A DNA stretch of 64,000 bases from Allobranchiibius huperziae (lineage in GTDB: Bacteria > Actinomycetota > Actinomycetes > Actinomycetales > Dermatophilaceae): contig NZ_JACCFW010000001.1 of the NCBI RefSeq assembly GCF_013410455.1, forward strand, positions 3,116,929-3,180,928, given 5' to 3'. The translations under genes and the position numbers were made by a program. Shown in pieces: positions 14,995 through 64,000 of this stretch (position 1 is its first letter; each line of letters starts with the position of its first letter). The notes beneath the pieces were generated by a model. It was not told where the DNA came from. It was given only the letters and a program-made list of their open reading frames with translations, and did no database searches.

Positions 14995-15047
14995 AGGCGA
15001 CTGCCGGATCCGTCGTACCCCGACACGGTCATCGCGCGACCGTGGTG

Positions 15048-15099: not shown

Positions 15100-15187
15100 A
15101 GTACTCGTCGCCCGGCGTACGAACCGCATGGCGCTTCCGGGCAGCCGGCACAGCGTGTGCTCAGTGGATCCCCCGTAGCCTGGAGCG

Positions 15188-15874: not shown

Positions 15875-15904
15875 CGGACCCGCTCGACAGCACGACGACC
15901 CAGG

Positions 15905-46114: not shown

Positions 46115-46346
46115 CGGATTCCTCCGTCTGCGTCGGGCCCTGCCCCGACACCTGGGATGTGCGGACTCCCCCAGTGCACTGCCCACCCGCGCCGTAGGAC
46201 TACAGGACTGAGTCCTAACCCTGACCGATCCAAGGTCTTAGGCCCTCGCTGGCAGCGGTGCGTGCTCCGAGGCCGCCCCCGTACGGGAGTGCGCGCGCGG
46301 TGCGATGCTGGGCGCAGCGCACCTCCCACCATCCGCCAGGAGCACC

Positions 46347-49623: not shown

Positions 49624-50772
49624 ATGACGCTGTTGAAGTTCCACGCCCCCGAAGTCGTCTTCGGGGCGGGTTCGCTCGGTGAGGCCGGTTTCGCCGCCGG
49701 CCGGCTGGGCGCCAAGCGTCCGTTCGTGGTGACCGACGACGGGATCGTCGAGGCCGGCTGGCTGGCCGAGCTGGAGACGGTGCTGCGCGCCAGCGGCCTG
49801 GACCCCCAGGTCTACGAGAAGGTCAGCCCCAACCCCAAGGACCACGAGATCGCCGCGGCGCATGCTGCGTACGTCGAGCGCGAGGGCGACGTCATCATCG
49901 GCCTCGGCGGCGGCTCGTGCATCGACGCCGCCAAAGGAGTCGCGGTGCTCGCCGGAAACGGCGGCGACATCCTGGACTACCGCGGCGTCGACCAGGTGCT
50001 GTTGCCGATACCGCCCACGCTGATGATCCCCGCGACATCGGGCACCGGCGCGGACGTCTCCCAGTTCTGCATCGTCACCGACACCCGGCGCTCGGTGAAG
50101 GTGACGATCATGGGCCGCGCGCTGGTCCCGGACATCTCCATCACCGATCCCCGCCTGCTGCACACCATGCCGGACTGGCTCAACGCCGCGACCGGGCTGG
50201 ACGCCCTCACCCACGGGGTCGAGGCCTTCGTCTCCCTCGCGCACAACCCGCTCGCGGACATGCACGCCCTGTGCGCCGTCCGCCAGGTGGTCGGCCACCT
50301 GCGGACGACGATGGACCATCCCCTCGACGGGGAGGCGCGCTCGGCGATGGCGGAGGCCAGCCTCAACGCCGGGCTCGCCTTCAGCAACGCGATCCTCGGC
50401 GCGACCCACGCGATGAGCCACCAGGTCGGCGGCCTGCTCGACGCTCCGCACGGCGTGATCAACGGCGTGCTGCTGCCCCACGTGATCCGCTACAACGCCC
50501 AGTCGGCACCGGAGCGCTTCATCGGGCTCGCGCAGGCGGTCGGCCTCGACACGCACGGATGGTCCGGCGAGCAGGCCGCCAACCAGCTCGCCGATCTGGC
50601 GCGGACGCTCGCCGACCAGGTCGGCGTACCGAAGGGCCTGTCGGCGCTCGGGGTGACCGAGCAGGATTGCGAACGGCTCGCCGGCACGACCCTGGAGGAC
50701 GCCTGCCTCACCACCAACCCGCGCAGTGCCTCCGTCGGCGACATCAGGGCGTTGTTCCGGGCGGCCCTGTGA
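49624..50772 (+). CDS. Iron-containing alcohol dehydrogenase (mno-locus type)
   Basis: A 382-residue group III (iron-type) alcohol dehydrogenase. N-terminal nucleotide fold with GGGSCIDAAKG; metal ligands sit in GLDALTHGVEAF (Asp, His) and THAMSHQVGGLLDAPHGVIN. TSGTGADVS lines the cofactor. Closest by context to the 1,3-propanediol-type dehydrogenase beside mno in Mycobacterium smegmatis. Followed, with a 4-base overlap, by the MnoS-like kinase, so alcohol oxidation and its sensor are co-translated. The upstream gap has GGTTACCGTGGTCACC (49576-49591), a possible regulator site. ATG 49624 with GAGGTG upstream. Confidence 0.88.
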   Translation: MTLLKFHAPEVVFGAGSLGEAGFAAGRLGAKRPFVVTDDGIVEAGWLAELETVLRASGLDPQVYEKVSPNPKDHEIAAAHAAYVEREGDVIIGLGGGSCIDAAKGVAVLAGNGGDILDYRGVDQVLLPIPPTLMIPATSGTGADVSQFCIVTDTRRSVKVTIMGRALVPDISITDPRLLHTMPDWLNAATGLDALTHGVEAFVSLAHNPLADMHALCAVRQVVGHLRTTMDHPLDGEARSAMAEASLNAGLAFSNAILGATHAMSHQVGGLLDAPHGVINGVLLPHVIRYNAQSAPERFIGLAQAVGLDTHGWSGEQAANQLADLARTLADQVGVPKGLSALGVTEQDCERLAGTTLEDACLTTNPRSASVGDIRALFRAAL

Positions 50773-52262
50773 CCGCCGATCCCCACCGGGCCGAGGACGT
50801 GGACACCCGCCGTCCGGATCTGGCGTCGCTCACCGGCCTGCGTTCGGGCAAGCGGTCCTACTACCGCGAATACCGCGAGTCCGACGAGCGACTCGCCCGC
50901 GCCGTGCGGGCGATGGACTCCATCTCACGTGCCCTGGTGCGGACCGTCGAAGGCCCCCGCGGACTGCTCGAGGAGGTCGCGCGGACGGCGAGCGCCCACC
51001 TCAGCGCCCAGTGGACGCTGCTGAGCCTCGCGGACGGTCAGCTGCCCGGGGCGCGGCCCCGCTTCGTGGTGGTCGACAGCGAGCGCCGGGTAGTGGAGGA
51101 CGAGGAGCTTCCGGCCGGCGTACGACGCGAGCTGGGCTCGTTGCGGGCCGGGCACCAGGCACCCGTCATCGATACCCGCGGATGGGTGCGGGTGCCGATG
51201 AACCTGGAGGGAGCCACGGTCGGTGGCATCGCGCTGCTGCACGGCCTCCCGAGCGATCCCGAGCCGGGCGACCTGTCGGTGCTGCGCATCCTCGCCAACC
51301 AGGCGGCGGTCTCGCTGCACACCTCCGAGCAGTTCCAGGCCGGCACCGCCCTCCACCGGCGCGCTCAACGGCTGCACGACGAGACGGCGGCACAGGCACG
51401 TGACCTCGCCGAGCGCACAGCCGCCCTGCGGCGCGCCCAGGACCGTCTGGTGGTCGCGGACCAGTGGTTGATCGTCGACGAGGAACGGCACCGGATCGCC
51501 CGCGAACTTCACGACACGGTCGCCCAGCAGGTGCTGACCGTGGGAATGACCGTCGACCTGGCCGAGCGGGACGCCGCGCAGTGGCAGGAGCAGCACGGCG
51601 CGAGCACCGCTCCCATCCGGCAGCAGCTGCGCGTGGCGCGGGATCTGTCGCGTGACGTCGTCGACCAGCTGCGGCAGGCGATCTACGCGCTGAGCCAGCA
51701 CCGCGACGACACGGTGCGCAGCCTGCCGGAGCTGCTCTCGGAGCTGGTGCGCCAGCACGACGGCAAGGTCAGCGTGCGGCTGCGGGTGCACGGCACGGAG
51801 ATCGCCCTTCCCGAGAGCGTCCGGCACGAGCTGACCCGTGCGGTCGGTGAGGCCCTGTTCAACGTCAAGGTCCATTCGGGCGCCACCCGCGCCGTGGTGC
51901 GGGTGAACTACCGCCCCGACCTGGTGATCGTGTCCGTCGCCGACGACGGCCACGGCGACCCCGCGCAGCTGCGGCGAGTGCTCCGGGTGACGATGGCGGC
52001 CACCGGCGACGGGCGCCACCGCGGCCTGGCCAACCTGCACGCCCGCATCACGTCCACCGGTGGCGACCTGCGCTTCCGCCGGTCACGGATGGGTGGCGTC
52101 GAGGTGCAGATGCGGCTGCCGCTCCCGTTGCCCGACGCACTCGACCCGGGCCTCATCGGGCACCTGCTGGATCCGCCGCCCGTCACCGACCAAGCCACGC
52201 CGACGATGCTCGTCACCGGGACCGTACGAGCGCTCTCGCACCGCGTACGGTCGCGGTCATGA
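50769..52262 (+). CDS. mnoS: MnoS-like GAF sensor histidine kinase
   Basis: A 497-residue soluble kinase: a GAF domain (residues ~45-190, starting AMDSISRALVRTVEGP), a coiled-coil linker (AQRLHDETAAQARDLAERTA), HisKA_3 with phospho-His248 in IARELHDTVAQQVLTVGMTV, and an ATPase lid (VSVADDGHGDP). No membrane segment, so the signal is cytoplasmic, plausibly the alcohol or an aldehyde product. GTG 50769 overlaps the dehydrogenase stop (GTGA). Order dehydrogenase-kinase-regulator and proximity to mno match the MnoS/MnoR system of M. smegmatis; orthology is inferred from layout. Confidence 0.8.
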   Translation: MTADPHRAEDVDTRRPDLASLTGLRSGKRSYYREYRESDERLARAVRAMDSISRALVRTVEGPRGLLEEVARTASAHLSAQWTLLSLADGQLPGARPRFVVVDSERRVVEDEELPAGVRRELGSLRAGHQAPVIDTRGWVRVPMNLEGATVGGIALLHGLPSDPEPGDLSVLRILANQAAVSLHTSEQFQAGTALHRRAQRLHDETAAQARDLAERTAALRRAQDRLVVADQWLIVDEERHRIARELHDTVAQQVLTVGMTVDLAERDAAQWQEQHGASTAPIRQQLRVARDLSRDVVDQLRQAIYALSQHRDDTVRSLPELLSELVRQHDGKVSVRLRVHGTEIALPESVRHELTRAVGEALFNVKVHSGATRAVVRVNYRPDLVIVSVADDGHGDPAQLRRVLRVTMAATGDGRHRGLANLHARITSTGGDLRFRRSRMGGVEVQMRLPLPLPDALDPGLIGHLLDPPPVTDQATPTMLVTGTVRALSHRVRSRS

Positions 52263-52966
52263 GCAGCACCGCAGGCCGGGAGCAGGACACGCGGGCGTCG
52301 GACGACGACGCGAGGTCGACCCCGGCGGGCGCGCCGTTGCGCGTCGTCCTGGTCGACGACCACGCCATCGTGCGGCACGGCCTGCGGGCGGTGCTGTCGC
52401 GCGAGCCGGACCTCGAGGTCGTCGGCGAGGCGGCCACCCCCGACGAGGCGCGTGCCGTGATCGGCCACCTGCACCCGGACATCGTCCTGCTCGACCTCAA
52501 GCTGTCGACGACCCACGAGGCCGAGGGGCTCGTACTGTGCGAGCAGCTCACAGCGGCCTACCCCCGGATCGGCGTGCTCGTGCTGACCACCTTCATCGAC
52601 GACGCGCTCGTCCTGCAGGCAGTCCGGGTCGGCGCGCGCGGTTACGTGGTCAAGGACGTCGACACCTCCGCGCTGCTGCGGGCGATCCGCGACGTCGGCG
52701 CGGGCAAGAGCGCGTTCGACGCGCACAGCGCCGCGGCCATGGTGCGCGGGCTCAACGCGCCCACACCGTCCTCGGATCAGCTCACCGAGCGCGAACGCGA
52801 GGTGCTGGCGCTGCTCGCACGCGGACTGTCCAACCGGCAGATCGGCAGCCGTCTCTACGTCGCCGAGACCACCGCGAAGTTCCACGTCGGCAACATCCTG
52901 CGCAAGCTCGGGGTGTCCCGGCGCACCGAGGCCGTCTACGAGGCGAGCAAGCGCGGCGTTCTGTAG
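52259..52966 (+). CDS. mnoR: MnoR-like NarL-family response regulator
   Basis: A 235-residue regulator: receiver domain with acidic DDH, phospho-Asp79 (VLLDLKLS) and Lys in YVVKDVD; C-terminal LuxR helix-turn-helix (LTEREREVLALLARGLSNRQ, then YVAETTAKFHVGNILRKLGV). A ~25-residue disordered N-terminal extension precedes the receiver. ATG 52259 overlaps the kinase stop. By analogy it should activate mno and this dehydrogenase when alcohols are present. Confidence 0.85.
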   Translation: MSSTAGREQDTRASDDDARSTPAGAPLRVVLVDDHAIVRHGLRAVLSREPDLEVVGEAATPDEARAVIGHLHPDIVLLDLKLSTTHEAEGLVLCEQLTAAYPRIGVLVLTTFIDDALVLQAVRVGARGYVVKDVDTSALLRAIRDVGAGKSAFDAHSAAAMVRGLNAPTPSSDQLTEREREVLALLARGLSNRQIGSRLYVAETTAKFHVGNILRKLGVSRRTEAVYEASKRGVL

Positions 52967-52997
52967 CGGACATGGACACCGGGCGATCGCGAGCGTC

Positions 52998-53900
52998 ATG
53001 AGAGCCGCACAGTTCCGCCGGTTCGGCGGCCCCGAGGTCCTCGAGATCGTCGACCTGCCCGAGCCCCACGCGGGCGCCGGTGAGGTGCGAATCGCAGTGC
53101 GTGCGGCGGGCGTCAACGCGAGCGACTGGAAGAAACGATCCGGCCGGATGGATCAGGAACTCCCACAGACCCTCGGGTACGAAGCCGCTGGGGTCGTCGA
53201 CGAGATCGGTGGCGGTGTCACCGACGTTCAGCTCGGCGACGAGGTCGTCGGGATGGGCGGTGGCGGCGCGGCGCAGGCCCAGTTCGCGGTGCTGTCGACA
53301 TGGGCTGCGATCCCGCCGTCGATGAGCTTCGTCGATGCCGCCACGCTGCCGTCGACGGTGGAGACCGCTGCCCGCGCCCTGGATCAATTGGGCGTGACGC
53401 GCGGCAGCACGGTCTTGATCAACGGCGCGTCCGGGAGCATCGGCAGTGCCGCCGTGCAGTTCGCCGTCCACCGCGGGGCCCGCGTGATCGGCACCGGCAG
53501 CGCTGCGTCTCATGGCTACCTGCGCGACCTCGGCGCCGAACCCGTCGCGTACGGCGAGGGAATGACGGGCCGGGTGCGCGCGCTCGCCCCGAACGGGGTC
53601 GACCTGGCCCTGGACGTCGCCGGAAGCGGAGTCCTGCCGGAGCTGATCGACCTGGCCGGGGGCTCGGAGCACGTGGTGACGATCGCGGATTTCGCGGGTG
53701 CACACGAACACGGCGTGCGGTTCAGCCGCGGCGACTCCGGTCGCGCCGACTACGCGATCGCGCTGGCACTGCGGCTCATCGACGAGGGCACGTTCCGCGT
53801 GCCGCCCGTGCACACATTCCCGCTGCAGGAGGTCGCCGAAGCACACCGCGCCGGCGAGTCCGGAGACGTCCGCGCGAAGATCGTCCTCACCCAGGATTGA
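52998..53900 (+). CDS. Zinc-free medium-chain quinone oxidoreductase family protein
   Basis: A 300-residue MDR protein of the quinone oxidoreductase branch: MRAAQFRRFGGPEVLEIVDL start, GYEAAGVVDEIGGGV, Rossmann motif INGASGSIGSAAVQFAV and NADPH site. No structural zinc cysteines. Reduces quinones or enones with NADPH. 31 bases after mnoR, same strand; it could belong to the transcript, but a clear link to alcohol metabolism is not shown. Confidence 0.87.
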   Translation: MRAAQFRRFGGPEVLEIVDLPEPHAGAGEVRIAVRAAGVNASDWKKRSGRMDQELPQTLGYEAAGVVDEIGGGVTDVQLGDEVVGMGGGGAAQAQFAVLSTWAAIPPSMSFVDAATLPSTVETAARALDQLGVTRGSTVLINGASGSIGSAAVQFAVHRGARVIGTGSAASHGYLRDLGAEPVAYGEGMTGRVRALAPNGVDLALDVAGSGVLPELIDLAGGSEHVVTIADFAGAHEHGVRFSRGDSGRADYAIALALRLIDEGTFRVPPVHTFPLQEVAEAHRAGESGDVRAKIVLTQD

Positions 53901-53936
53901 GTCGATCGGCTCAGCCGTGGGCCTAGAGTCCGGCGG

Positions 53937-54098
53937 GTGAACTACCTCGTGTGCCCGGACGACGGGGAGCAGCTGAAGGTGGTCCCGGGTCATCGGGACG
54001 CCGCGGCCGGTCTGGTGGTGCGGTGCCCCCGGTGCGCCGCGGTCTTCCGGTTCGCGAAGGGCAATCTCACCTCGATCGCCGACCCGGACGGTCGGTAG
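53937..54098 (+). CDS. Small zinc-ribbon-like protein (Trm112/UPF0434-like)
   Basis: A 53-residue protein, too short for many gene finders. GTG 53937 follows CGGC-GG. It carries Cys6, Cys30 and Cys33 (VVRCPRCAAVF); the usual second Cys of the first knuckle is replaced by Asp9 (CPDD), so zinc would be bound by three Cys plus Asp, or not at all. Family resemblance is to Trm112-like zinc ribbons that activate methyltransferases, and two methyltransferase genes lie close by (54111, 55068), but on the other strand. Confidence 0.6.
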   Translation: MNYLVCPDDGEQLKVVPGHRDAAAGLVVRCPRCAAVFRFAKGNLTSIADPDGR

Positions 54099-54110
54099 GC
54101 GCCCGCGCGC

Positions 54111-54854
54111 TCAGGCGATGAGAAGGCGAGCCCCGAGCTCCGCGGCATCGAGGTCGAGGATCTCGCTGTTGCGCTCGACCCATCGGCCTGAGGCCAGATC
54201 CCGCCGCAGACTGTGGACCGCGCGCTGTTCGACGTCCGGTCCCACGCCGTGCCACACCGACACGTTGCGACGGACCCGCTCGTCGAGGTAGGCCTCGGGC
54301 CGGCGCCAGTACGCCTCGTGGAAGCCGTCCTCGCAGTCCCAGGGGATGGCCACCGGATCCAACCGGGCCCCGATCGCGTCCGCCAGATCGCTCACGGATG
54401 CCAGGACCCGCACGGCTCTCAGCGCGGCGAACTCGGGCAGGTAGTCACGGTTCAGCCAGAACAGGCTCGGGTCGCTCGTGTCGAACAGGAGCACCACCAC
54501 GCGACGTGCCACACGGCGCATCTCGCGCAGGCCGGCGATCGGGTCCTGCCAGTGGTGGAGGGTGAAGACAGCCATCGCGGCGTCGAAGGTCTCGTCACCG
54601 AACGGCAGGTGCTCCGCGGAGCCGGCAACGCACGGAGCCGAATGCGGGGGACGCTGCGAGCGCATGAGCGCCGAGGGCTCGATGGCAAGGACATCGCGGT
54701 CCGGGGGCTCGTAGCAACCCGTCCCCGCCCCCACGTTGAGCACGGTCCGCGCATCGCCGAGCGCGGCCCAGATGCGCGCGGCGATGCGCGGATCCGTGCG
54801 CCGGGTGGCGGTGTACGTGGCTCCGATGGTGTCGTACAACCGGACGGTTGACAT
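54111..54854 (-). CDS. SAM-dependent methyltransferase
   Basis: A 247-residue class I methyltransferase: motif I VLNVGAGTGCYEP, acidic end of strand 2 (LAIEPSALM), GSAEHLPFGDETFDAAMAVF, and FDTSDPSLFWLNRDYLPEF. Family-level match only (Methyltransf_11); substrate unknown. Its start is preceded, on the opposite strand, by a frameshifted coding remnant. Not obviously part of the mycofactocin set; converges on the zinc-ribbon gene. Confidence 0.8.
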   Translation of the reverse strand: MSTVRLYDTIGATYTATRRTDPRIAARIWAALGDARTVLNVGAGTGCYEPPDRDVLAIEPSALMRSQRPPHSAPCVAGSAEHLPFGDETFDAAMAVFTLHHWQDPIAGLREMRRVARRVVVLLFDTSDPSLFWLNRDYLPEFAALRAVRVLASVSDLADAIGARLDPVAIPWDCEDGFHEAYWRRPEAYLDERVRRNVSVWHGVGPDVEQRAVHSLRRDLASGRWVERNSEILDLDAAELGARLLIA

Positions 54855-54865
54855 GCGGACTCCCT

Positions 54866-55060
54866 CTTGCCGACCTGAGGAACGTGACCGCCGACTCCGC
54901 CGGCGTGACGCTCTACAGCTACACCAGCTCGGCCACCTGGGACTACCGGCCGTCTACACCGAGCAGTCCTACATCTTCGGCACCACCAGCCCGACCTCGC
55001 GACGCTGACCGACTCGTCGGCCAACTCTCCCGGGCGCAGGGCGTGCCCCGCCCGCGCATA
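54866..55060 (+). pseudogene. Frameshifted remnant of a protein-coding gene
   Basis: Codons with G or C in every third position read NVTADSAGVTLYSYTSSATW then DYRP in one frame; at about 54952 coherent coding continues in the next frame as VYTEQSYIFGTTSPTS, and then seems to shift again (TLTDSSANSPG). Such perfect third-position bias broken by frame changes marks a decayed gene, not random DNA. Aromatic, Thr/Ser-rich composition suggests an extracellular or enzyme fragment; parent family unknown. Confidence 0.35.
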
Positions 55061-55067
55061 CCGCAGC

Positions 55068-55997
55068 TCAGCCGGTGCAGTCGATGGTCAGCCAGCCGCC
55101 GTGATCCTCCGCGACCTCGTACGGGCGACCGGTCCAACGGCCCCATCGGTCCAGGTCGGCCAGGTCGATGGTGCGCACGTGCCCGAACGTCTCATTGGCA
55201 TCGGACTCCAGGGGTACGGCGATCACCGCACGCTCGCGGGCCAGTCGGATGGCCTCGGTGATGGCGCGCTCCCCCTGCTCGGGGTCCAGATGCTCCAGCA
55301 GATGCAGCATCAGCACCGTGTCAGCGCACCCGCTGGCGGCCGGCACGTGGGTGGCGTCGGCGACGAGGGTGCGGATGCCCAGGCCGAGCCGGCCCGCGAC
55401 CGCGGACAGCAGTCCGACAGTGCCCGGGGAGACGTCGGACGCGACGGCCGCGACGCCGTCCCGCGCCAGCAGCAGGGACAGGAAACCGAAGCAGCACCCG
55501 AGCTCGATGACACTGCCGCTGCCCTTGCACAGGGTCCGGGCACGCGCGTAGACAGGGGCATAGCCCTCGATGCCCTGCGCGCACCCGTCACCACGTGTGG
55601 CCACCGTGTCGTCGAGGCATTCGTCCAGGCGTCGGATCGTGTTGCGGTAGAACGCTGTCCAAGCATCGAGCGGGTCGGCGGCGACGGTGCGCACCACCCC
55701 CGTCACGATGCGCTCGAACGAGTCGGCACCGCGCACCCAGCCGGGCTCGAACAGCTCGCTCCACAACAGACCGGTGAGGTCCTCATCGACCGTGTCCGCG
55801 TTCAGGGCGTGTCGCACGATCAACTCGGGCCCACGCCCCGACAGGTCGAAGTGCGGGGTGCGCACGATGTGCCGCGCACCCGGCGCCGGACGCAGGCCCT
55901 CCGGCGCGATGTCGACGGTGCCGTCGGCATAGCGGCCGTTCTGCAGCGGGCGGAACGGGTCGAGCGCATCGGCCCCGCCCACCGTCCCGACCGTCAT
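55068..55997 (-). CDS. mftM: Mycofactocin oligosaccharide methyltransferase (MftM)
   Basis: A 309-residue AdoMet methyltransferase. Motif I is VIELGCCFGFLSLLLARDG; other parts are VASDVSPGTVGLL and LMLHLLEHLDPEQGERAITE; an ~130-residue N-terminal region (starting with the DPFRPLQNGRYADGTVDIAP segment) is specific to this group. In M. smegmatis the mno-linked methyltransferase MftM methylates the mycofactocin glucan. Position after mno-MoxR-VWA and beside mftABC supports the same role. ATG 55997 overlaps the VWA stop (ATGA). The frame extends further upstream but only as shadow of the VWA gene. Confidence 0.8.
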   Translation of the reverse strand: MTVGTVGGADALDPFRPLQNGRYADGTVDIAPEGLRPAPGARHIVRTPHFDLSGRGPELIVRHALNADTVDEDLTGLLWSELFEPGWVRGADSFERIVTGVVRTVAADPLDAWTAFYRNTIRRLDECLDDTVATRGDGCAQGIEGYAPVYARARTLCKGSGSVIELGCCFGFLSLLLARDGVAAVASDVSPGTVGLLSAVAGRLGLGIRTLVADATHVPAASGCADTVLMLHLLEHLDPEQGERAITEAIRLARERAVIAVPLESDANETFGHVRTIDLADLDRWGRWTGRPYEVAEDHGGWLTIDCTG

Positions 55998-57523
55998 CGC
56001 ACTTCCTGAGCCAGCTCCAGCGAGAACGATTCGAGGGAGTCCAGTCCGCGCACCACGTGCACGGCGTCGCAGTACTCGGCGTAGAGCGGCACGTCGCAGC
56101 GTCCGAGCCCCCAGGAGTAGCGCGGCTCCGGCGTCAGCCAGATGGTGTGGCGGGCGCGCCGGGTCAGCTCCTCGAACGCGCGCAGACCCGGGTTGTGGCC
56201 GTTGCCCCTGCCGTCGCTCAGCACCACGAACGTCGTTCGGGAGTGCACGGCCGAGCCGTACTCCTCCAGGAAGGTGGAGAAGGCGCTGCCGCAGTCGGTG
56301 TCGGCGTCGACGTCGATCGGCCCGCCCCCCACGGGGCCGGCCATGATGCGGGTGAGTGCCTCCTCCGGACGCAGCTCGTCGAACATGTCGGTGACCTCGG
56401 CCACTTGGTCCACGAAGACGAAACTGCGCACCGAGGACACCAGGGACGCCAGGCCCTGCACGAGGTGCAGCGTGAACTGCGCGGTCGACCGGACAGACAG
56501 GGACACGTCGGCGAGCACCACGAGCCGGGGCCGGTCCGGTGTCTTGCGCACGGTCACCGGGCGGAAGGGGATCGCGTCGTACCGCATGTTGGCGCGCATC
56601 GTGCGACCGCCGTCGACCGTGCCCGTCGACGAGATCCGGCGCCGCGGGCGCGGCGCGCCGTGCAGCCCGCGGACGATGCGGCGCAGGGACTGCTCCATCG
56701 TGAAGCGTTCCCACTGGTCGATCTGCTCGGCCTGCGGGACCTCGTGCTCGCGCTGCTCCATGTCGATCTGCAGGTCGAGCATCTTCTGCAGGTGACGGCG
56801 CAGGCTCTCGGACAGCCCGTCGAGCAGCGGGGCCAGCTTCTGACGCATCGCCTCCAGGTCGAGGTCCTCCTCGTCGTCCGCCCCGTCCGGCAGGTCGGAG
56901 TCGGCCAGCCAGCCGAGCAACGCCATCTCCTGGGCGACGGACAGGTCGGCGTCCACCTCGACGCCGGGAGACTTGGCGATCGTGCCGGGCAGACCGGGGT
57001 TGTGCAGCCGGCGCACCGACAGGCGTACGCGGGCGGCCTCCACCAGCGCGTCGACCTTGTCCTTGGACAGCACCACCTCGTCGGTGCTGGAGGACATGTC
57101 GAGCTTGTTCGCCTCCTGGTGCAGGTTGAACTGCTGCACCAGGTCCTCGGGGCGGAAGTAGTCGCGGATGTCGTCGGGCTCACCGTGGCTGTGCCCCTGC
57201 GACGGGGTGTCGCCCGGTTCCTGGGACAGCGTGAACTGCTGCAGGTCGCCCTCGTCGGACAGGTCGTCGTGGGCGTGGGAGTGCTCCTCGTCCTTGGCGA
57301 GGACGGGCAGCAGGAAGAAGAAGGCGTCGAAGACCGTCTCGAAGGTGGGCAGGTCGCGCCGGTCCTTGATCAGCGTCACCGACAGGGCGGCCCGCAGGGC
57401 CTCCCTGTCGGTGAGCAGACCCGGTGTCGCGGCTGCCCGCATCGCGTCGAGGACCTCACTGACGCTGACGCGGACCCCGTGCAGCCGCAGCAGACGCACG
57501 AACCGGTGCAGTGCGGCTTCCAT
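55994..57523 (-). CDS. VWA-domain protein (CoxE-like) of the mno locus
   Basis: A 509-residue cytosolic protein. The C-terminal third is a VWA/CoxE domain with MIDAS: DVSLSVRSTAQF (DxSxS) and FVVLSDGRGNG, plus ADTDCGSAF. The N-terminal half has helical parts and an exposed acidic, His-bearing linker (EEHSHAHDDLSDEGD and SQGHSHGEPDD). MoxR/CoxE pairs assemble or activate metalloenzymes. Coupled to mftM by ATGA and 6 bases after the MoxR gene. Start ATG 57523. Confidence 0.85.
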   Translation of the reverse strand: MEAALHRFVRLLRLHGVRVSVSEVLDAMRAAATPGLLTDREALRAALSVTLIKDRRDLPTFETVFDAFFFLLPVLAKDEEHSHAHDDLSDEGDLQQFTLSQEPGDTPSQGHSHGEPDDIRDYFRPEDLVQQFNLHQEANKLDMSSSTDEVVLSKDKVDALVEAARVRLSVRRLHNPGLPGTIAKSPGVEVDADLSVAQEMALLGWLADSDLPDGADDEEDLDLEAMRQKLAPLLDGLSESLRRHLQKMLDLQIDMEQREHEVPQAEQIDQWERFTMEQSLRRIVRGLHGAPRPRRRISSTGTVDGGRTMRANMRYDAIPFRPVTVRKTPDRPRLVVLADVSLSVRSTAQFTLHLVQGLASLVSSVRSFVFVDQVAEVTDMFDELRPEEALTRIMAGPVGGGPIDVDADTDCGSAFSTFLEEYGSAVHSRTTFVVLSDGRGNGHNPGLRAFEELTRRARHTIWLTPEPRYSWGLGRCDVPLYAEYCDAVHVVRGLDSLESFSLELAQEVR

Positions 57524-57529
57524 GGCCGC

Positions 57530-58750
57530 CTACAGGGGACGCTTGCGCGAGGCCGAGACGGTGCTGGGCCGGACGGGCATCGGGGTGCGCACCCCGGCCG
57601 CTCCCGCCTTGGCCGGACCGGTCGACCCGTAGTAGCCGTCGTCGTGGCGCCCGGGTCGGTCCTTCGCGGCCCGCCGTGCCACCCCTTCGGGGTCCTTGGC
57701 AGGTGCAGCCTCGGACGCCGGGTGGCTGTGCCCGTCGTCCGGGTGGTCGTGCGAGTGGTCGTGCCCATGGTCGTGACTGTGCCCGTGACCGGGCAGCGTG
57801 TCCGGGACCTCGGCGTTCGGGTCGATCAACCGGGGCAGCGTCCGGCGCGCCGTCTCCAGGTCACGCTCGTACTTCACCACCACCGACAATGTCTCGGAGA
57901 GCAGCGACGCGGACAGCTCCTGCGCGCCGAGGACCGCGAGGGTGCGGGCCCAGTCGATGGTCTCGCTCACGCTGGGCGCCTTGCGCAGGTCGAGCTCGCG
58001 CAGCCCGCGCACCACGTGCACCAGGCTCTCGGCCAGCGCGGGCTCCAGTCCGGTGTCCTTGGACGCGATGATGTCCAGTTCGCGCTCGGCCTGCGGGTAG
58101 TCCAGGAAGAGGTGCAGACAGCGTCGCTTCAACGCAGCGGACAGGTCACGGGAGTTGTTGCTGGTGAGGACGACGTACGGCTGCTGCGCGGCGGTGATCG
58201 TGCCGACCTCCGGGATGGAGATCTGGAACTCCGCGAGGGTCTCCAGGAGGACGGCCTCGAGCGCCTCGTCCGCACGGTCGACCTCGTCGATCAACAGCAC
58301 CACCGGCTCCGGCGAGGTGAGCGCCTCCAGCAGCGGCCGCTGCGCCAGGAACCGTTCGGAGAAGAAGACGCTGTCCTGCTCGGAGATGCGATCGACGGCC
58401 TCTCCGATGGTGCTGGTGTCCGCGACGATCTGCCCGATCTTCTCCCGCAGGATCTGGGTGTAGAGCAGCTGCTTGCCGTAGTCCCACTCGTAGAGCGCCT
58501 TGGACTCGTCCTGCCCCTCGTAGCACTGCAGCCGCAGCAACCGCCGGCCCGTGGCGAGCGCCAGGCTCTGCGCCAGCTGCGTCTTGCCGACACCCGCGGG
58601 GCCCTCGATCAGCAGCGGTTTCTCCAGCCGGGTCTGCAGGAAGACGGTGGTGGCGAGCCGGTCGTCGGTGAGATAACCGACCTCGCGCAGCTTGGCCTTG
58701 GTGTCCTCGACGTCTGCGAAGGCGGGTACCTCGGTGTTCGTGTCGTCCAC
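57530..58750 (-). CDS. MoxR-family AAA+ ATPase with His-rich C-terminal linker
   Basis: A 406-residue AAA+ ATPase: Walker A GPAGVGKT (residues 50-57), Walker B LLIDEVD (152-158), sensor 1 VVLTSNNSRD and Arg fingers in ALKRRC. After the lid domain (to ~315) comes an unusual segment at 321-344 with 10 His in 24 residues (GHGHSHDH pattern), then a disordered basic tail. His clusters of this kind bind Zn, Ni, Co or Fe. GTG 58750 is chosen: AGAGG lies 5 bases before it; an ATG at 58912 would extend through the hairpin spacer. Likely works with the VWA protein on the adjacent methanol dehydrogenase. Confidence 0.85.
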   Translation of the reverse strand: MDDTNTEVPAFADVEDTKAKLREVGYLTDDRLATTVFLQTRLEKPLLIEGPAGVGKTQLAQSLALATGRRLLRLQCYEGQDESKALYEWDYGKQLLYTQILREKIGQIVADTSTIGEAVDRISEQDSVFFSERFLAQRPLLEALTSPEPVVLLIDEVDRADEALEAVLLETLAEFQISIPEVGTITAAQQPYVVLTSNNSRDLSAALKRRCLHLFLDYPQAERELDIIASKDTGLEPALAESLVHVVRGLRELDLRKAPSVSETIDWARTLAVLGAQELSASLLSETLSVVVKYERDLETARRTLPRLIDPNAEVPDTLPGHGHSHDHGHDHSHDHPDDGHSHPASEAAPAKDPEGVARRAAKDRPGRHDDGYYGSTGPAKAGAAGVRTPMPVRPSTVSASRKRPL

Positions 58751-58788
58751 GTCGTCCTCTCCGGCGGATGCACTGGGGAATGTGAGCC

Positions 58789-58827
58789 CGGCGTGGCACA
58801 CCCCTGACCTAAGGATGTGCCACGCCG
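58789..58827 (-). terminator. Hairpin between mno and moxR
   Basis: CGGCGTGGCACA (58789-58800) pairs perfectly with TGTGCCACGCCG (58816-58827), 12 bp with a 15-base loop, 13 bases after the mno stop. Because moxR-vwa-mftM follow in the same direction with only 89 bases between, it may be a partial terminator or mRNA-protecting stem giving high mno and lower chaperone levels. Confidence 0.55.
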
Positions 58828-58839
58828 AGTGTCCTTGTC

Positions 58840-60132
58840 TCAGCCGAGCAGGTCGTCCAGGTCGCCGTTCATGCAGTGGTCGACGACCGGGGAGACCGAC
58901 TCGAACGTGCACTCCCGTGCGTTGCCGGGGGTGCAGGCGTCACCGAGCACGTGATTGGTGATGCGAGCGACGTCGTCCTTGTCGCCGGAGATCTCCGTGG
59001 TCTTCTCGTAGAACTTGGTGGGGCCCTGACCCAGGCGGTTCTTGGAGTAGCTGTCCTGGGTCACGTCGGTGAACTTCTCCGGGATGCCCACGTCGCGCAG
59101 CAGCCGGATCGACGCGGCCAGTGCGGCATCGGCCGCCTGGACGTCGGTCATCCCGTGCGTGTCGACACCGAGCGCCACGGCCATCTCAGCGAACCGCTTG
59201 TAGTTCGCCGGCATGTTGAACGCCCAGACGCGCGGCAACGCGATGGCGTTGTTGAGCCCGTGGTGGGTGTCGTAGAAGGCACTGATCGCGTGCGAGATGG
59301 AGTGGATGATGCCGAGCCCGCCGGAGTTGAAGGCCTGGGCGGCGATGTACTGCGCGTACATCATCCCCTGTCGCCCGGCGAGATCGTCGCCGTTCCAGAC
59401 CGCCTGGCGCAGGTTCTCGCCGGTCAGCTTGATGGCGTAGAGCGCACTCCCGAGCGACGGCGGGAAGTCCAGCCGCGAGACGTACGGCTCGCTGGCGTGC
59501 GCGAGCACGTCGAAGCCGCACTGCGCGGTGTAGTCCGTCGGACAGGTGTAGTAGAGCACCGGGTCGTCGATGGCGAGCGTCGTGATGGCGGCGTCGTCGA
59601 ACGCGACGTACTTGTGCGGCTGGTCGGGGTCGGTCGTGGTGTCGGTGATGACATAGGCCCACGACGTCTCCGATCCGGTGCCGGCCGTGGTGGACACGGC
59701 GATGTGCGGCGGGTTCTTGGGGTTCTCGGACTTGTTGAAGCCCTCGAACTCGTTGACGTTGCGCCCGTCGTGCGCCACGGAGATCCGGGCGCCCTTGCAC
59801 GCGTCGTGGGCCGACCCGCCACCGATCGAGACGAACGAGTCGCAGTCGTTCTCCTGGTACATCGCGACGGCGTCCATCGTGTTGTAGTCCTTGGGGTTGG
59901 ACTCGACCTTGTCGTAGACCACCACCTCCAGACCGTGGTACTTCATCGACTCCACGATCTTGTGCACCGTGTCGGTGCCCCGTAGACCGGTGGTCATCAC
60001 CAAGGTCTTGCGGAAGCCGAGCTTCAGTGCCTCCGGTCCGATCAGCTCGTGGGATCCGGGGCCCAGAAGACCTCGGGGGAACGGGTGGAACTCTTTGATC
60101 GGAAACGGCTTGAGCAGCTCATCGACCTGCAT
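58840..60132 (-). CDS. mno: NDMA-dependent methanol dehydrogenase (nicotinoprotein)
   Basis: A 430-residue iron-type alcohol dehydrogenase of the Mno/Mdo group that oxidises methanol and other primary alcohols with a tightly bound NAD, measured with the dye NDMA; mycofactocin is thought to be the natural electron acceptor. Family landmarks: KPFPIKEFHPFPRGLLGPGS, GGGSAHDACKGA, STTAGTGSETSWAYVITD, CGFDVLAHASEPYVS and HSISHAISAFYDTHHGLNN (metal His). Ends in CMNGDLDDLLG. ATG 60132 has AAGGAGG 6 bases upstream. Divergent from mftA; followed by moxR. Confidence 0.93.
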   Translation of the reverse strand: MQVDELLKPFPIKEFHPFPRGLLGPGSHELIGPEALKLGFRKTLVMTTGLRGTDTVHKIVESMKYHGLEVVVYDKVESNPKDYNTMDAVAMYQENDCDSFVSIGGGSAHDACKGARISVAHDGRNVNEFEGFNKSENPKNPPHIAVSTTAGTGSETSWAYVITDTTTDPDQPHKYVAFDDAAITTLAIDDPVLYYTCPTDYTAQCGFDVLAHASEPYVSRLDFPPSLGSALYAIKLTGENLRQAVWNGDDLAGRQGMMYAQYIAAQAFNSGGLGIIHSISHAISAFYDTHHGLNNAIALPRVWAFNMPANYKRFAEMAVALGVDTHGMTDVQAADAALAASIRLLRDVGIPEKFTDVTQDSYSKNRLGQGPTKFYEKTTEISGDKDDVARITNHVLGDACTPGNARECTFESVSPVVDHCMNGDLDDLLG

Positions 60133-60135
60133 CAC

Positions 60136-60458
60136 GACCTCCTTGTCGAAGCGTTATTCGCCAGACAGTAGGAGCCGACAGCGCCGCCGCGACAGGCTCC
60201 GGAGCAAAGACTGATCCGAGCACTGGGGCATGCTCACCCAACGGTCACCGGCGCCCTGTCCCTTCGAACAGGACCGGTCGATGACGGGCGGTTCGGAGGC
60301 CGCTGCCCTGCCTGAATGTTCGGTGAAATCACCTGTCAAACCTATCTGTTCGGGCAGGTTGCCCTCGACCAGCGAGCAGTGCCCCGTGCGGGGACGCGGG
60401 CATAGCGTTGCGGTCACGAGCGGGCCCAGAAGGGTGCGCGAGCCGGAGGGAGTTCGTG
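60136..60458. promoter_or_regulatory. Shared promoter region of mno and the mft operon
   Basis: 323 bases without a gene. Palindromes: CCTGT-N8-ACAGG (60255-60272), GGTGAAATCACC (60322-60333, 5-2-5) and GGGCAGGTTGCCC (60352-60364). A perfect minus-strand TTGACA (complement of 60334-60339) touches the second one and points at mno, though no good -10 follows. The mno ribosome site AAGGAGGT occupies 60137-60144 and mftA has GGAGGGAG at 60444-60451. The palindromes are candidate sites for MnoR or an MftR-like repressor. Confidence 0.5.
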
Positions 60459-60587
60459 ATGCCAGCTGACCTTGACCAGCAGGAGCAGGTCGCCGACACG
60501 CAGGTCGAGGACCGGGCGGACGAGGCTCCCGTGGAGGAGAGCCTCGTCGAGGACGTGTCCATCGACGGAATGTGCGGCGTCTACTGA
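60459..60587 (+). CDS. mftA: Mycofactocin precursor peptide MftA
   Basis: A 42-residue ribosomal precursor: an acidic leader (DQQEQVADTQVEDRADEAPV) and the invariant core ending IDGMCGVY. MftC decarboxylates and cross-links the terminal Val41-Tyr42; MftE then frees that unit, which becomes the redox head group. Found by reading the sequence around 60459; it is below the usual size cut-off. ATG follows GGAGGGAG by 7 bases. The stop shares one base with the mftB start (TGATG). Confidence 0.95.
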   Translation: MPADLDQQEQVADTQVEDRADEAPVEESLVEDVSIDGMCGVY

Positions 60588-60856
60588 TGCTGCACGAACG
60601 TTGGGAGCTGAGCGGCTCGGTGGCCCTGCGCCCCGAGCCGTTCGGCGCTCTCGCCTACGACTTCGACAGCCGCCGTCTGACCTTCCTGAAGTCACCTGGC
60701 CTGGTGCGGGTCGTGCGCGCCCTCGGGGCCGGCGGCGACGTCGAGGCCGCCCTGGTGGCCGGCGACGTGCCGCAGGAGCAGTGGCCGCGCTACCTAGAGG
60801 CGCTCACCCGGCTCGCGGAGCACCGCATGCTGCGGCCGGCGGAGGTGGCGGCATGA
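60587..60856 (+). CDS. mftB: Mycofactocin precursor peptide chaperone MftB
   Basis: An 89-residue PqqD-like RiPP recognition element that binds the MftA leader and presents it to MftC. The winged-helix features are FDSRRLTFLKSPGLVRVVRA, GDVEAALVAG and LEALTRLAEHRMLRP. ATG 60587 (start MLHERWELSG) overlaps the mftA stop; an upstream ATG at 60572 lies inside mftA. The 3' end overlaps mftC by 4 bases (ATGA). Confidence 0.93.
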   Translation: MLHERWELSGSVALRPEPFGALAYDFDSRRLTFLKSPGLVRVVRALGAGGDVEAALVAGDVPQEQWPRYLEALTRLAEHRMLRPAEVAA

Positions 60857-62028
60857 CGATGGTCGAACCACGCCTGGTCGAGCGCTTCGAGCAGGGCCTG
60901 GATGCCCCGATCTGTCTCACCTGGGAGCTGACGTACGCGTGCAACCTGGCGTGCGTGCACTGCCTGTCCTCCTCAGGTCGGCGCGACCCGCGGGAGCTCA
61001 GCACGCAGGAGTGCATGGCGCTGATCGACGAGTTCAAGCGCATGCAGATCTTCTACGTGAACATCGGCGGCGGCGAGCCGACCGTGCGTCCGGACTTCTG
61101 GGAGCTGGTCGACTACGCGGTCGACAACTACGTGGGAGTCAAGTTCTCCACCAACGGTTTCCGGATCACCAAAGAGCGCGCGGAGCGCCTGGCGTCCACC
61201 GACTACCTCGACGTGCAGATCTCCCTGGACGGTGCGACGGCGGAGGTGAACGACGCCGTACGCGGAGCCGGCACCTACGACCGCGCGTTGCGGGCCCTCG
61301 GATACCTGGCCGACGCCGGCATGAAGGACACCAAGATCTCGGTGGTCTGCACGCGGGAGAACATTCCGCAGCTGGATGAGTTCAAGGCCATCGCCGACCG
61401 GTACAACGCGCAGCTGCGCCTGACCCGGTTGCGTCCCGCCGGCCGCGGCGCGGACACGTGGGGCGATCTGCACCCGCTGCCGGAACAGCAGCGGCTGCTC
61501 TACGACTGGCTGGTCGCGCACGGCGAGGGGGTGTTGACGGGCGACTCGTTCTTCCACCTGTCGGCATACGGCGAAGCCCTGCCCGGGCTCAACCTGTGCG
61601 GCGCCGGACGGGTGGTGTGCCTGATCGATCCGATCGGAGACGTCTACGCCTGCCCGTTCGCGATCCACGACCGGTTCCGCGCGGGCAACGTGCGTGGCGC
61701 GGGGTTCGCGCCGGTCTGGCGGGAGTCGGAGCTGTTCACCGAGCTGCGATCCCCGCAATCGGGCGGGGCGTGCACGCACTGCAGCGCGTACGACTCCTGC
61801 CGCGGGGGGTGCATGGCCGCGAAGTTCTTCACCGGCCTGCCCCTGGACGGGCCTGATCCGGAGTGCGTGAAGGGCAACGGAGCCGTCCCGGCCTCGGTGC
61901 GCCCGCAGCCCTCACAGGACCACTCCCACCGAGGTCCGGTGCGCAACCAGCCGGTGCCACTGACGCTGCAGACCCGCCGCCCGGAGCGGGCCTGCGACGA
62001 GAATCCGCTCGCCGGTCTGCGCGGATGA
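60853..62028 (+). CDS. mftC: Mycofactocin radical SAM maturase MftC
   Basis: A 391-residue radical SAM/SPASM enzyme. The AdoMet cluster motif is Cys30-x3-Cys34-x2-Cys37 in TYACNLACVHCLSSSG; SPASM cysteines occur from CGAGRVVCLIDPIGDVYACP to CTHCSAYDSCRGGCMAAKFF. It oxidatively decarboxylates Tyr42 of MftA and then forms a Val-Tyr carbon-carbon bond. The disordered tail (RPQPSQDHSHRGPVR, then RACDENPLAGLRG) is usual for MftC. ATG 60853 overlaps mftB. Confidence 0.97.
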   Translation: MTMVEPRLVERFEQGLDAPICLTWELTYACNLACVHCLSSSGRRDPRELSTQECMALIDEFKRMQIFYVNIGGGEPTVRPDFWELVDYAVDNYVGVKFSTNGFRITKERAERLASTDYLDVQISLDGATAEVNDAVRGAGTYDRALRALGYLADAGMKDTKISVVCTRENIPQLDEFKAIADRYNAQLRLTRLRPAGRGADTWGDLHPLPEQQRLLYDWLVAHGEGVLTGDSFFHLSAYGEALPGLNLCGAGRVVCLIDPIGDVYACPFAIHDRFRAGNVRGAGFAPVWRESELFTELRSPQSGGACTHCSAYDSCRGGCMAAKFFTGLPLDGPDPECVKGNGAVPASVRPQPSQDHSHRGPVRNQPVPLTLQTRRPERACDENPLAGLRG

Positions 62029-62852
62029 TCACGGGGCCGGGCGGGTCGGGCGGGCCCAGTGCGCGTCGCACGCCGCCCGGCCCGCCCGCGTCCTCGTTCG
62101 CGCGGTGGACCTCCCCGCAGGCCGAGGGCGGCCCCACGTTGATCGTGCCGGTCGGATCCCTGGAGCAGCACGGGCCGCATCTGCCGCTCGACACCGACAG
62201 CGTGATCGCCGTCGCCGCAGCGACGTCGGCGGCCGAACTGCTGACGGCCGGTGGCGAGTACGTCGCGGTGGCCCCGGTCGTCGCCTACGGCGCCTCGGGA
62301 GAGCACCAGGACTTCGCGGGCACGGTGTCGATCGGGCGCGACGTGCTCACCGCGGTACTGATCGAGATCGGCCGCAGCGTCGGCACCTGGACGACGCGCC
62401 TGGTCTTCGTCAACGCGCACGGAGGCAACGGGGCGGCCGTACGCGACGCGGTGCGGCTGCTGCGCGCGGAGTCCAGGGACGTGTCCTGGGTGGCGGCCGG
62501 AGTGCCGGGCGGCGATGCGCATGCGGGCCATGTGGAGACGAGCATGATGCTGCACCTGCGCCCCGCGTCCGTGCACATGGATCGCGCGGTCCGCGGCACG
62601 GGCGGCGCGATCGAGCAGCTGCTCCCCGCCCTGCGGGAGGGTGGCGTACGCGCGGTGTCGCCGACCGGCGTGCTCGGAGATCCGCGCACGGCGGACGCCC
62701 AGGACGGCGCGCGCCTGTGCGGTCTGATCGCCCACGACGTCGCCGACCGCATCCGCCACGGATGCGTCGATGACGCCGGACTCCTGACGGCCCCTGCCCG
62801 GGAGACCGTGGCATCGCCGCAGCCGCCCGGCGTACCGGCAGGCTCGCGGTGA
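62025..62852 (+). CDS. mftE: Mycofactocin precursor peptide peptidase MftE
   Basis: A 275-residue creatininase-fold metallopeptidase releasing the Val-Tyr-derived unit from processed MftA. Metal ligands: Glu47, His49 and Asp58 (SLEQHGPHLPLDTDS), then VNAHGGNGAAV and GDAHAGHVETSMML. ATG 62025 is in frame and overlaps the mftC stop (ATGA); the frame upstream is shadow of mftC. N-terminal ~25 residues are Gly/Pro-rich and variable. Usually mftD stands between mftC and mftE; it is absent here. Confidence 0.93.
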   Translation: MITGPGGSGGPSARRTPPGPPASSFARWTSPQAEGGPTLIVPVGSLEQHGPHLPLDTDSVIAVAAATSAAELLTAGGEYVAVAPVVAYGASGEHQDFAGTVSIGRDVLTAVLIEIGRSVGTWTTRLVFVNAHGGNGAAVRDAVRLLRAESRDVSWVAAGVPGGDAHAGHVETSMMLHLRPASVHMDRAVRGTGGAIEQLLPALREGGVRAVSPTGVLGDPRTADAQDGARLCGLIAHDVADRIRHGCVDDAGLLTAPARETVASPQPPGVPAGSR

Positions 62853-63634
62853 CGGGTCCGGCCGCCCTGGTCACCGGCGCCGCCCGCGGCATCGGTGCCG
62901 CGACCTGCCGCCGACTGGCGCAGCGCGGGCTGCACGTGATCGCGGTCGACGCGTGCCTCGGCGCGGAGCAGGGGCGGTTCGCGGGCGCCGTACCGGCAGA
63001 CCTGGCCATGCTGCAGGCCGAGCTCGGCGACAGCGTCACGACCGTGCGGGCCGACGTACGCGACGCCCGTGCTTTCGCGGCGGGTATCGCCGACGCGCTG
63101 GCAGCCGCCGACGGACTGCGCACCGTGGTGGCCGCGGCGGCGCTCATCGATGGCGGGGACGACCTCTGGAGCACCGATCCCGCCGTCCTGGAGGCGATGT
63201 GGCGCACCGACGTCGTCGGCGTCTGGAACACCGCAGCCGCCTGCGTGCCGGCGCTGCTCGCGACCGCGGACGGCGGAGGTGACGCCTCGTTCGTCGCGAT
63301 CGCGTCCGCGGCCGGCGATCGGGGTCTGTGGCACCTGGCGGCCTACTGCACCGTGAAACACGCGGTCGTCGGGCTCGTGCGCGGGCTGGCCGCCGACCTG
63401 CAGGGCCGAGGCGTCGCCGTCAGCGCCGTGTCCCCCGGGTCGACCGCGACGCCGATGCTCACGGCGACGGCCGCGATCTACGGACTGACGGACACCTCCG
63501 AGCTCGCGCGCGAGATGACCGCTCGCGTACCCCTCGCCCCCGACGACATCGCGCAGGTCATCGAGACCGCGTGCCTCGCCGGTCCGGTCACGCACGGATC
63601 GATCTTCGACGCGACGGGCGGGTTCGGCGCATGA
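62849..63634 (+). CDS. Mycofactocin-associated short-chain dehydrogenase
   Basis: A 261-residue SDR of the mycofactocin-coupled subfamily. Cofactor motif TGAARGIG (residues 9-16); Ser in FVAIASAAGDRG; YCTVKHAV gives the catalytic Tyr and Lys; PG in AVSPGSTATPM. Subfamily members keep a non-exchanging NAD and hand electrons to mycofactocin. The first ~100 residues have the extended insert (DACLGAEQGRFAGAVPADLA) seen in these SDRs. GTG 62849 overlaps mftE (GTGA). Substrate unknown. Confidence 0.88.
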   Translation: MTGPAALVTGAARGIGAATCRRLAQRGLHVIAVDACLGAEQGRFAGAVPADLAMLQAELGDSVTTVRADVRDARAFAAGIADALAAADGLRTVVAAAALIDGGDDLWSTDPAVLEAMWRTDVVGVWNTAAACVPALLATADGGGDASFVAIASAAGDRGLWHLAAYCTVKHAVVGLVRGLAADLQGRGVAVSAVSPGSTATPMLTATAAIYGLTDTSELAREMTARVPLAPDDIAQVIETACLAGPVTHGSIFDATGGFGA

Positions 63635-64000
63635 GCACCGTCGACTCCCTGGTGCCGCCGGGCGTGCGGGTGCGGCTCAGCGACGACGTCGTGCGCTGCG
63701 ACGACGGCCAGACCCTCTTCGGCACCCGCAGCGGACGCATCCTGCGACTGGCGCCGGTCGCGGTGCGAATACTGCAGGACGGCGACTTCACCGTCTCCGA
63801 CCGCACCGGCGCCGTGCTGTCCCGCGCGCTCTTCGACCGCGGCATGGCCGACCCGCTGTGGCCGGCGCGTCCGGCCGAGACCGACCCGGCGCGGGCGTTG
63901 CACGACGTCACGGTGGTCGTGCCGGTGCGCGATCGCACCTCGGCGCTCCAGGCCCTGCTGGAGGCTCTGCCGCCGGTCGGCGACGTGGTCGTCGTCGACG
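63631..64000 (+). CDS. mftF: Mycofactocin glycosyltransferase MftF (5' part)
   Basis: The first 123 residues of a GT2 protein, cut by the window end. The ~85-residue N-terminal domain (VPPGVRVRLSDDVVRCDDGQ, GRILRLAPVAVRIL) is the MftF-specific PqqD-like part; the GT2 fold then starts at LHDVTVVVPVRDRTSALQAL with DVVVVD following. MftF adds the beta-1,4-glucose chain to the mycofactocin core. ATG 63631 overlaps the SDR stop (ATGA). Catalytic Asp motifs lie outside the window. Confidence 0.9.
   Translation, partial: MSTVDSLVPPGVRVRLSDDVVRCDDGQTLFGTRSGRILRLAPVAVRILQDGDFTVSDRTGAVLSRALFDRGMADPLWPARPAETDPARALHDVTVVVPVRDRTSALQALLEALPPVGDVVVVD

Follow-up and report, generated by a model that had tools for sequence, protein, structure and literature searches.

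Does the close packing of mycofactocin and methanol dehydrogenase genes in Allobranchiibius huperziae reflect shared control, or only proximity? The stretch analysed here (the window) comprises 64,000 nt of a 3.72 Mb genome, labelled G000. From position 49,624 onwards it carries genes for an iron-type alcohol dehydrogenase (AdhFe), the sensor kinase MnoS and the response regulator MnoR, then the methanol dehydrogenase gene mno with moxR, vwa and mftM, and, divergent from mno, the mycofactocin (mft) genes (Table 1). The locus is read here as one alcohol-oxidation module under MnoSR control, in which MnoR would bind and activate at mftA (rough probability 0.7), and MnoSR would most likely switch on the cofactor and the dehydrogenase together. 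A sequence-only reading of the window had predicted co-regulation from this compact combination. Comparative evidence agrees with that prediction: a palindrome of the type found before mno lies upstream of mftA in all five scorable genomes with mno and in none of the 40 without it.

The palindrome, or box, was derived from sequences preceding mno. One Mno search of genome contigs gave 60 loci, skewed towards close relatives of the query. A palindromic motif sampler, applied to the 350 bases before mno in 56 loci (window included), returned ACCTGnCCGATCGGnCAGGT, with 48 of the 56 sites starting 110–165 bases before mno. Rerun on the N-free ones of 50 listed loci, the window left out, it recovered the same motif: the best of six starts reached 19.25 bits, the next two (14.46 and 10.92) being other alignments, and the best of three starts in each of eight Markov-resampled control sets gave 8.4–8.8 bits. 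The first scoring matrix used 43 of the 56 sites, chosen by eye. It left out the window and its nearest named relative, L049 (Allobranchiibius sp. CTAmp26, Dermacoccaceae, Mno identity 97%), together with loci that were weak or near-duplicate (L004, L012, L021, L028, L039, L047, L048, L051, L052, L053, and L061). In 2 Mb of Markov sequence, sites of at least 14 bits arise at 3 per Mb and sites of at least 18 bits at 0.5 per Mb. With this matrix, which excludes the window's own site, the box before mftA is the top site of all 64 kb (25.1 bits), and it still scores 24.5 bits with a matrix from non-divergent loci. A 15.8-bit site at 15224–15243 was taken as chance because it falls inside an open reading frame (ORF, 15188–15874).

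The decisive comparison concerns mftA across the class. In an even sample of the class (158 genomes, that of the window among them), Mno exceeds its cut-off in six genomes (seven genes), and MftC is present in 48, all six mno genomes among them. Sequences upstream of mftA were collected for all 42 mft genomes that lack mno as well as for the mno genomes; 45 of the 48 could be scored, L070 (G006, contig ends), L089 (G102), and L101 (G157, mftA at contig edge) being left out. The first matrix gave 19.2–25.1 bits in the five mno genomes and at most 10.6 bits in the 40 others. A second matrix, built from only 32 mno sites at loci where mftA is not divergent, gave 19.0–24.5 bits against a maximum of 11.6. 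Among 500 column-permuted matrices, one separated the two groups, with a gap of 0.54 compared with 7.37 for the second matrix.

Proximity to mno does not account for these boxes in every genome. MftC is near mno in two of the six mno genomes (G000 and G118), megabases away in G129, and on a separate contig in G139, G078, and G006; the close combination is thus one arrangement among several. In three of the five boxed genomes (G129, G139, and G078) mft is unlinked from mno and has MftR beside it, and in G118 a box precedes mftA though mft lies about 9 kb from mno. These four genomes argue against simple clustering, in which the parts would have been inherited or transferred as a block, the box serving mno alone and mft being controlled separately. 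So do the window and L049, in which mno and mftA each have their own box at the usual distance. What clustering explains well is the set of 15 divergent loci: there a single short intergenic region separates mno from mftA, which by geometry places one box upstream of both genes. It would also suit the silence about mft in the M. smegmatis deletion data described below, and as an explanation of the whole pattern we consider it unlikely. Because the mftA box occurs in mno relatives whose mft genes are elsewhere, enzyme and cofactor seem to be linked primarily by regulation and secondarily by position. The shared DNA signal suggests that cofactor and enzyme would be switched on together even where the two gene sets are far apart.

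Several observations weigh against shared control by MnoSR. The first group comes from M. smegmatis, in which MSMEG_1428 is presumably mftG. According to the accessible text of one study, the mno operon of this species is MSMEG_6242-6238, which spans the places between mno and mnoS, and a single MnoR palindrome lies 137 bp before MSMEG_6242 (PMC11303327). The MnoR consensus is reported to be single-copy in that genome, with an expression link for mno alone; the eight genes changed by mnoSR deletion under carbon limitation are the mno operon and three others, and mft is not named among them in the portion available (PMC11303327). Under other conditions the deletion caused broad changes, and MSMEG_1428 is named once among the genes lowered in a carbon-rich comparison (PMC11303327). 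Either the species differs, or the conditions were not those of an mft response, or the box has another reader. M. smegmatis shares with the window the dehydrogenase family, the two-component family, and a palindrome before mno (a weak copy in the window), whereas the window has AdhFe-mnoSR as a separate operon, mft divergent from mno, and a box at mftA.

The other opposing points lie in the comparison itself. Five mno genomes are few, one of them being the window's own and three coming from one family. The window's mno-proximal box is weak (14.2 bits); L049 has two strong boxes at places matching the window's, one of 24.4 bits 129 bp before mno. The window lacks a box upstream of AdhFe-mnoSR (3.3 bits), and among 33 AdhFe upstreams 23 fall below 14 bits. 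The remaining ten reach it, against 3/45 upstreams of MftM, 2/35 of MnoS, and 1/16 of MftD, and this contrast speaks for shared control. Among 39 mftA upstreams in the 60 loci, 14 of the 15 divergent ones reach 14 bits (the exception, L051, has 10.5); where mftA is near mno and not divergent from it, 8/24 reach 14 bits and 14/24 reach 11. A loose pattern allowing up to three mismatches matches the whole genome 124 times and its reversed control 39 times, so the pattern alone is not specific. That the box is an MnoR site we infer from its palindromy and position, the text of PMC11303327 carrying no consensus letters. The operator of the mft regulator MftR, at up to two mismatches, occurs at similar frequency in genomes without mno (26/40) and with it (3/5); G078 and G139 may thus keep traces of this operator next to the box. 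Finally, loci of Actinomycetospora and Pseudonocardia have boxes, with no MnoSR seen within 10 kb.

These last loci speak for a different reader: the mftA palindrome might be the site of another regulator, a second NarL-type or a TetR-type protein, found by chance in mno genomes. Their boxes are variants (approximately CCCCnnCCGnnCGGnnGGGG, upstream of mftA at L026:7428, L027:8685, L028:6775, and L061:7955), and some of the loci also have an MftR-like gene. MftR, the sole characterised mft regulator, responds to long-chain acyl-CoA, and its operator in M. smegmatis is T-N2-GGCA-N5-TGCC-N2-A (PMC8728441, in the parts available). The mftA box differs from that operator in sequence and fits the mno-only matrix at 19–25 bits. 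At up to one mismatch the MftR operator is found in 14/40 genomes without mno and in 0/5 with it, and in 8/39 mftA upstreams of the 60 loci, four of these from Pseudonocardia. The distribution of the kinase also tells against a different reader, since only five of the 158 genomes have MadS, the family of MnoS, above its cut-off, and all five are among the six with mno; the remaining mno genome, G006, has a locus that reaches the contig start after mftM. Another regulator at mftA therefore seems improbable to us, and MnoR is retained as the putative reader of the box.

How much of this is new can be delimited. In the available parts of the sources, Mno is a putative mycofactocin-dependent dehydrogenase (PMC6529628), and mycofactocin regulation reportedly responds to ethanol (PMC7491314). 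The literature search found no paper connecting MnoR with mft: among the papers listed, only PMC11778925 names both MnoSR (once) and mycofactocin, and PMC11303327 mentions neither mft nor mycofactocin. NCBIfam already names the MadB, MadC, MadS, MadR, and MftM families; the origin of the names MadB/C/S/R was not found in the search. Published work already covers the control of mno by MnoSR and of mft by MftR, so within the literature searched the new part appears to be regulatory, namely the mno-type palindrome at mftA.

The proposed input to MnoSR is an alcohol. In Pseudomonas, ErcA-type control of alcohol oxidation couples a kinase and a response regulator with an iron-type alcohol dehydrogenase-like protein. 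The window resembles this system in combining such a protein with a kinase and a response regulator, and differs from it in that AdhFe scores below the ErcA cut-off; a regulatory role for AdhFe is putative. NCBIfam describes ErcA as an alcohol dehydrogenase-like regulatory protein, and AdhFe may, at a guess, be the alcohol sensor. Of 41 loci with mnoS, 35 have AdhFe as its immediate upstream neighbour in the same orientation; in two of the other six, mnoS sits at a stretch edge. MnoS has no apparent transmembrane segment (maximum Kyte-Doolittle value over 19 residues, 1.03), and the C-terminal DNA-binding region of MnoR is alike among loci. The M. smegmatis counterpart of AdhFe is described, in the accessible parts of the sources, as a putative 1,3-propanediol dehydrogenase (PMC11778925, PMC11303327). 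Separately, in G023, which has no mno over cut-off, an iron-type alcohol dehydrogenase adjoins a weak MadS-like kinase (211 bits; contig 36, 5334–7750), a pair that might represent an older sensor unit.

Gene identities rest on gene calling and NCBIfam profile scans, and these confirmed every named gene in the order and orientation proposed by the sequence-only reading. That reading had omitted two genes between mnoR and mftM, one for a quinone-oxidoreductase-like dehydrogenase and one for a generic methyltransferase. It had also followed the mft part as far as mftF; L002, a stretch reaching past the window, supplies the remainder of mftF and then mftD, so the core order is mftA-B-C-E-SDR-F-D. 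Neighbours in AdhFe-mnoS-mnoR overlap by four bases, as do mftM and vwa. MftA, MftB, MftC, MftD, MftE, and MftF all score above their cut-offs; Mno does too, its assignment as a methanol dehydrogenase being sequence-based. The two additional genes stand outside the conserved set: above a 45-bit limit the quinone-oxidoreductase-like gene has a match in one other locus (L052, 60 bits), and the methyltransferase has three matches besides itself in the loci collected (E 0.002–0.005). This methyltransferase was considered as mftM and rejected, having no NF041255 match; a profile from the L007, L018, and L040 neighbours placed mftM at the next gene along. Upstream of AdhFe-mnoSR there is a gene for a copper-containing primary-amine oxidase (46305–48317; NF008559, 859 bits, cut-off 651).

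Table 1. Features of the mno-mft region, numbered from the first base of the window; profile scores in bits, with the family cut-off in brackets. NDMA, N,N-dimethyl-4-nitrosoaniline.
Feature	Position	Strand	Match or score	Remark
AdhFe, iron-type alcohol dehydrogenase	49624–50772	+	ErcA NF041833, 454 (550)	Best NCBIfam match; stop overlaps mnoS start
mnoS, MadS-family sensor histidine kinase	50769–52262	+	NF047786, 506 (500)	
mnoR, MadR-family NarL-type response regulator	52259–52966	+	NF047785, 334 (300)	
Quinone-oxidoreductase-like zinc dehydrogenase	52998–53900	+	TIGR02824, 146 (297)	
Generic class I methyltransferase, UbiE-like	54111–54854	-	No MftM match	
mftM, mycofactocin oligosaccharide methyltransferase	55068–55997	-	NF041255, 307 (200)	ATG at 55997
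vwa, MadC-related VWA protein	55994–57523	-	NF047783, 256 (600)	Residues 7–505, profile 8–494 of 498; VWA_CoxE match
moxR, MadB-related AAA+ ATPase	57530–58768	-	NF047784, 376 (475)	Profile 1–297 of 298
mno, NDMA-dependent methanol dehydrogenase	58840–60132	-	TIGR04266, 676 (625)	ATG at 60132; ORF opens with GTG at 60135
Weaker box	60254–60273		14.2	Midpoint 131 bp before mno ATG
Putative MnoR box	60340–60359		25.1	Midpoint 109 bp before mftA ATG
mftA, precursor peptide	60459–60587	+	TIGR03969, 48.6 (25)	C-terminus IDGMCGVY
mftB	60587–60856	+	TIGR03967, 98.7 (33)	
mftC, radical SAM maturase	60853–62028	+	TIGR03962, 628.8 (265)	
mftE, peptidase	62025–62852	+	TIGR03964, 300.6 (172)	
Mycofactocin-coupled SDR oxidoreductase	62849–63634	+	NF040491, 340 (265)	
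mftF, glycosyltransferase	63631–64000, on to 65127	+	TIGR03965, 327 (280)	Scored on part past the window
mftD	65120–66319	+	TIGR03966, 677 (471)	Past the window

The combination is recurrent and not special to the A. huperziae genome. Gene presence around the 60 mno loci was scored by tblastn, with bit thresholds set by the analyst. Within about 10 kb on each side of mno, 13 of 40 related loci carry all six of MftC, MoxR, VWA, MftM, MnoS, and MnoR; MftC as such is near mno in 27 of the 40. The full sets come from Phycicoccus, Nocardioides, Flexivirga, Allobranchiibius, Mycolicibacterium/Mycobacterium, and one Chloroflexales metagenome contig. In the 46 loci with at least 9.5 kb downstream of mno, MftM is present in 39, MnoS and MnoR in 33 each, and AdhFe in 30. 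In the class sample, only part of the first-look candidates was scored (per genome up to 13 for MadB, 9 for MadC, 14 for MftM, 10 for MadS, and 19 for MftR), and weak members could have escaped notice.

The presence of MftM follows that of mno and not that of mft: 6/6 mno genomes have it, and 0/42 other genomes with MftC do. In G129 a second mftM copy is found at 1910610–1911401 of contig 1, about 350 kb from the mno-linked one. In L018 (Nocardioides) an acetate uptake transporter gene (15423–16061; NF038013, 103 bits, cut-off 50) sits between mftM and mnoR, and L007 has at 14806–15420 a membrane protein similar to it by eye; the transporter at L018 would suit oxidation of ethanol to acetate.

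The mft cluster of mycobacteria (mftR, mftA-F, mftG) shares the core proteins MftA, B, C, D, E, and F with the window and differs from it in gene order. Of 31 first-look candidates for MftR (TIGR03968) in G000, 19 were scored, and none matched at E ≤1e-30. No MftG over cut-off was found there among 9 of 14 candidates scored; the best match to TIGR03970, the MftG model that includes the M. smegmatis protein, has 285 bits (cut-off 387) and is on another contig. TIGR04542, a second model used for MftG, gave no match in G000 at E ≤1e-100. The idea that loss of MftR goes with clustering was dropped: 11 of the 48 mftC genomes are without MftR over cut-off, eight of these being without mno, and in L013 mftA is divergent from mno with an MftR-like gene in the same stretch. 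A broader proposal, which we advance tentatively and at well under even odds, is that in all Actinomycetota with mno and mnoSR the master switch of mycofactocin synthesis may be MnoSR, responding to alcohol through its iron-type alcohol dehydrogenase-like sensor. Where mft is unlinked, MnoSR would act on top of the acyl-CoA-responsive repressor MftR; in this lineage it would have taken the place of MftR, cofactor and dehydrogenase now forming one divergent regulon.

The sequence-only reading had further supposed that the MoxR and VWA proteins belong to the cofactor and dehydrogenase system, and their distribution bears this out. All 53 loci that extend at least 3.5 kb downstream of mno have both next to it. 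In the 158 genomes the top seven MadB matches (364–548 bits, next 332) and the top seven MadC matches (253–793 bits, next 158) are the genes beside the seven mno genes. Together with MftM they form a nearly fixed set with mno, and MoxR/VWA and mnoSR homologues show phylogenetic linkage to mft and mno genes. Both proteins score below the MadB and MadC cut-offs despite near full-length alignments and are therefore termed relatives, not members.

The features of the two proteins are those of a MoxR/VWA pair, an AAA+ ATPase adjoining a VWA protein with an intact metal-ion-dependent adhesion site (MIDAS) motif. The MIDAS residues D339, S341, S343, T431, and D437 are identical in all 35 VWA proteins aligned. 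The window's protein has HxHxH and HxH motifs, and H81, H83, H85, H111, and H113 are kept in at least 90% of the alignment. The window's MoxR has a histidine-rich C-terminal tail. At least five histidines within 30 residues are found in 54 of 61 MoxR homologues, C-terminal in all 54, compared with 18% of 512 called ORFs of the loci; those below this mark are L030 (cut short), L044, L052, L056, L064, L065, and L072. By the same measure only 8 of 58 VWA proteins reach five. Solved structures related to MoxR by sequence include midasin, CbbQ, and NorQ, all distant. The predicted VWA model is of moderate confidence (mean predicted local distance difference test score, pLDDT, 68.6), and the PDB matches listed span the VWA domain only. 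Mno is itself an iron-type alcohol dehydrogenase; the DxxxH part of the family's metal-ligand motifs was found, and a pattern for the second part had no match in Mno or AdhFe.

By analogy, the most likely role of the pair would be metal insertion into Mno or its remodelling. As in NorQ-NorD and CoxD-CoxE, an AAA+ ATPase and a VWA protein are encoded beside the enzyme served; the accessible sources report that iron insertion into nitric oxide reductase requires NorQD (PMC9976466) and that CoxD-CoxE is a MoxR/VWA pair (PMC4240915, PMC3471820). Unlike those systems, the neighbour here is an iron-type alcohol dehydrogenase, and both partners of the putative maturation pair have histidine motifs. 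In E. coli the MoxR/VWA pair RavA-ViaA has been linked to respiratory complexes (PMC10585395, PMC3893208, in the parts available), and by that precedent the proteins might serve some other function, such as membrane-complex assembly or envelope stress. We hold this doubtful given the invariable place beside mno and the co-occurrence of the closest family members with it; the conserved histidine motifs, too, would suit a metal-handling role. Maturation of Mno is accordingly the function we favour.

Taken as a mechanism, an alcohol signal would activate the apparently soluble kinase MnoS, perhaps via AdhFe. MnoR would then bind palindromes of the type ACCTGNCCGATCGGNCAGGT and turn on two divergent operons, mno-moxR-vwa-mftM and mftABCE-SDR-mftFD. 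The second would provide mycofactocin, whose sugar chain MftM would methylate; MoxR/VWA (MadB/MadC) would probably remodel Mno or aid uptake of its metal or bound nucleotide; and Mno and the SDR would pass electrons to mycofactocin.

Co-occurrence ties MftM and the MoxR/VWA pair to methanol dehydrogenase rather than to the cofactor at large, and this tie hints at the purpose of the sugar methylation and of the chaperone-like proteins. In the control of mycofactocin, an MnoR-type box at mftA, present where mno is, would provide the alcohol input that has been missing.

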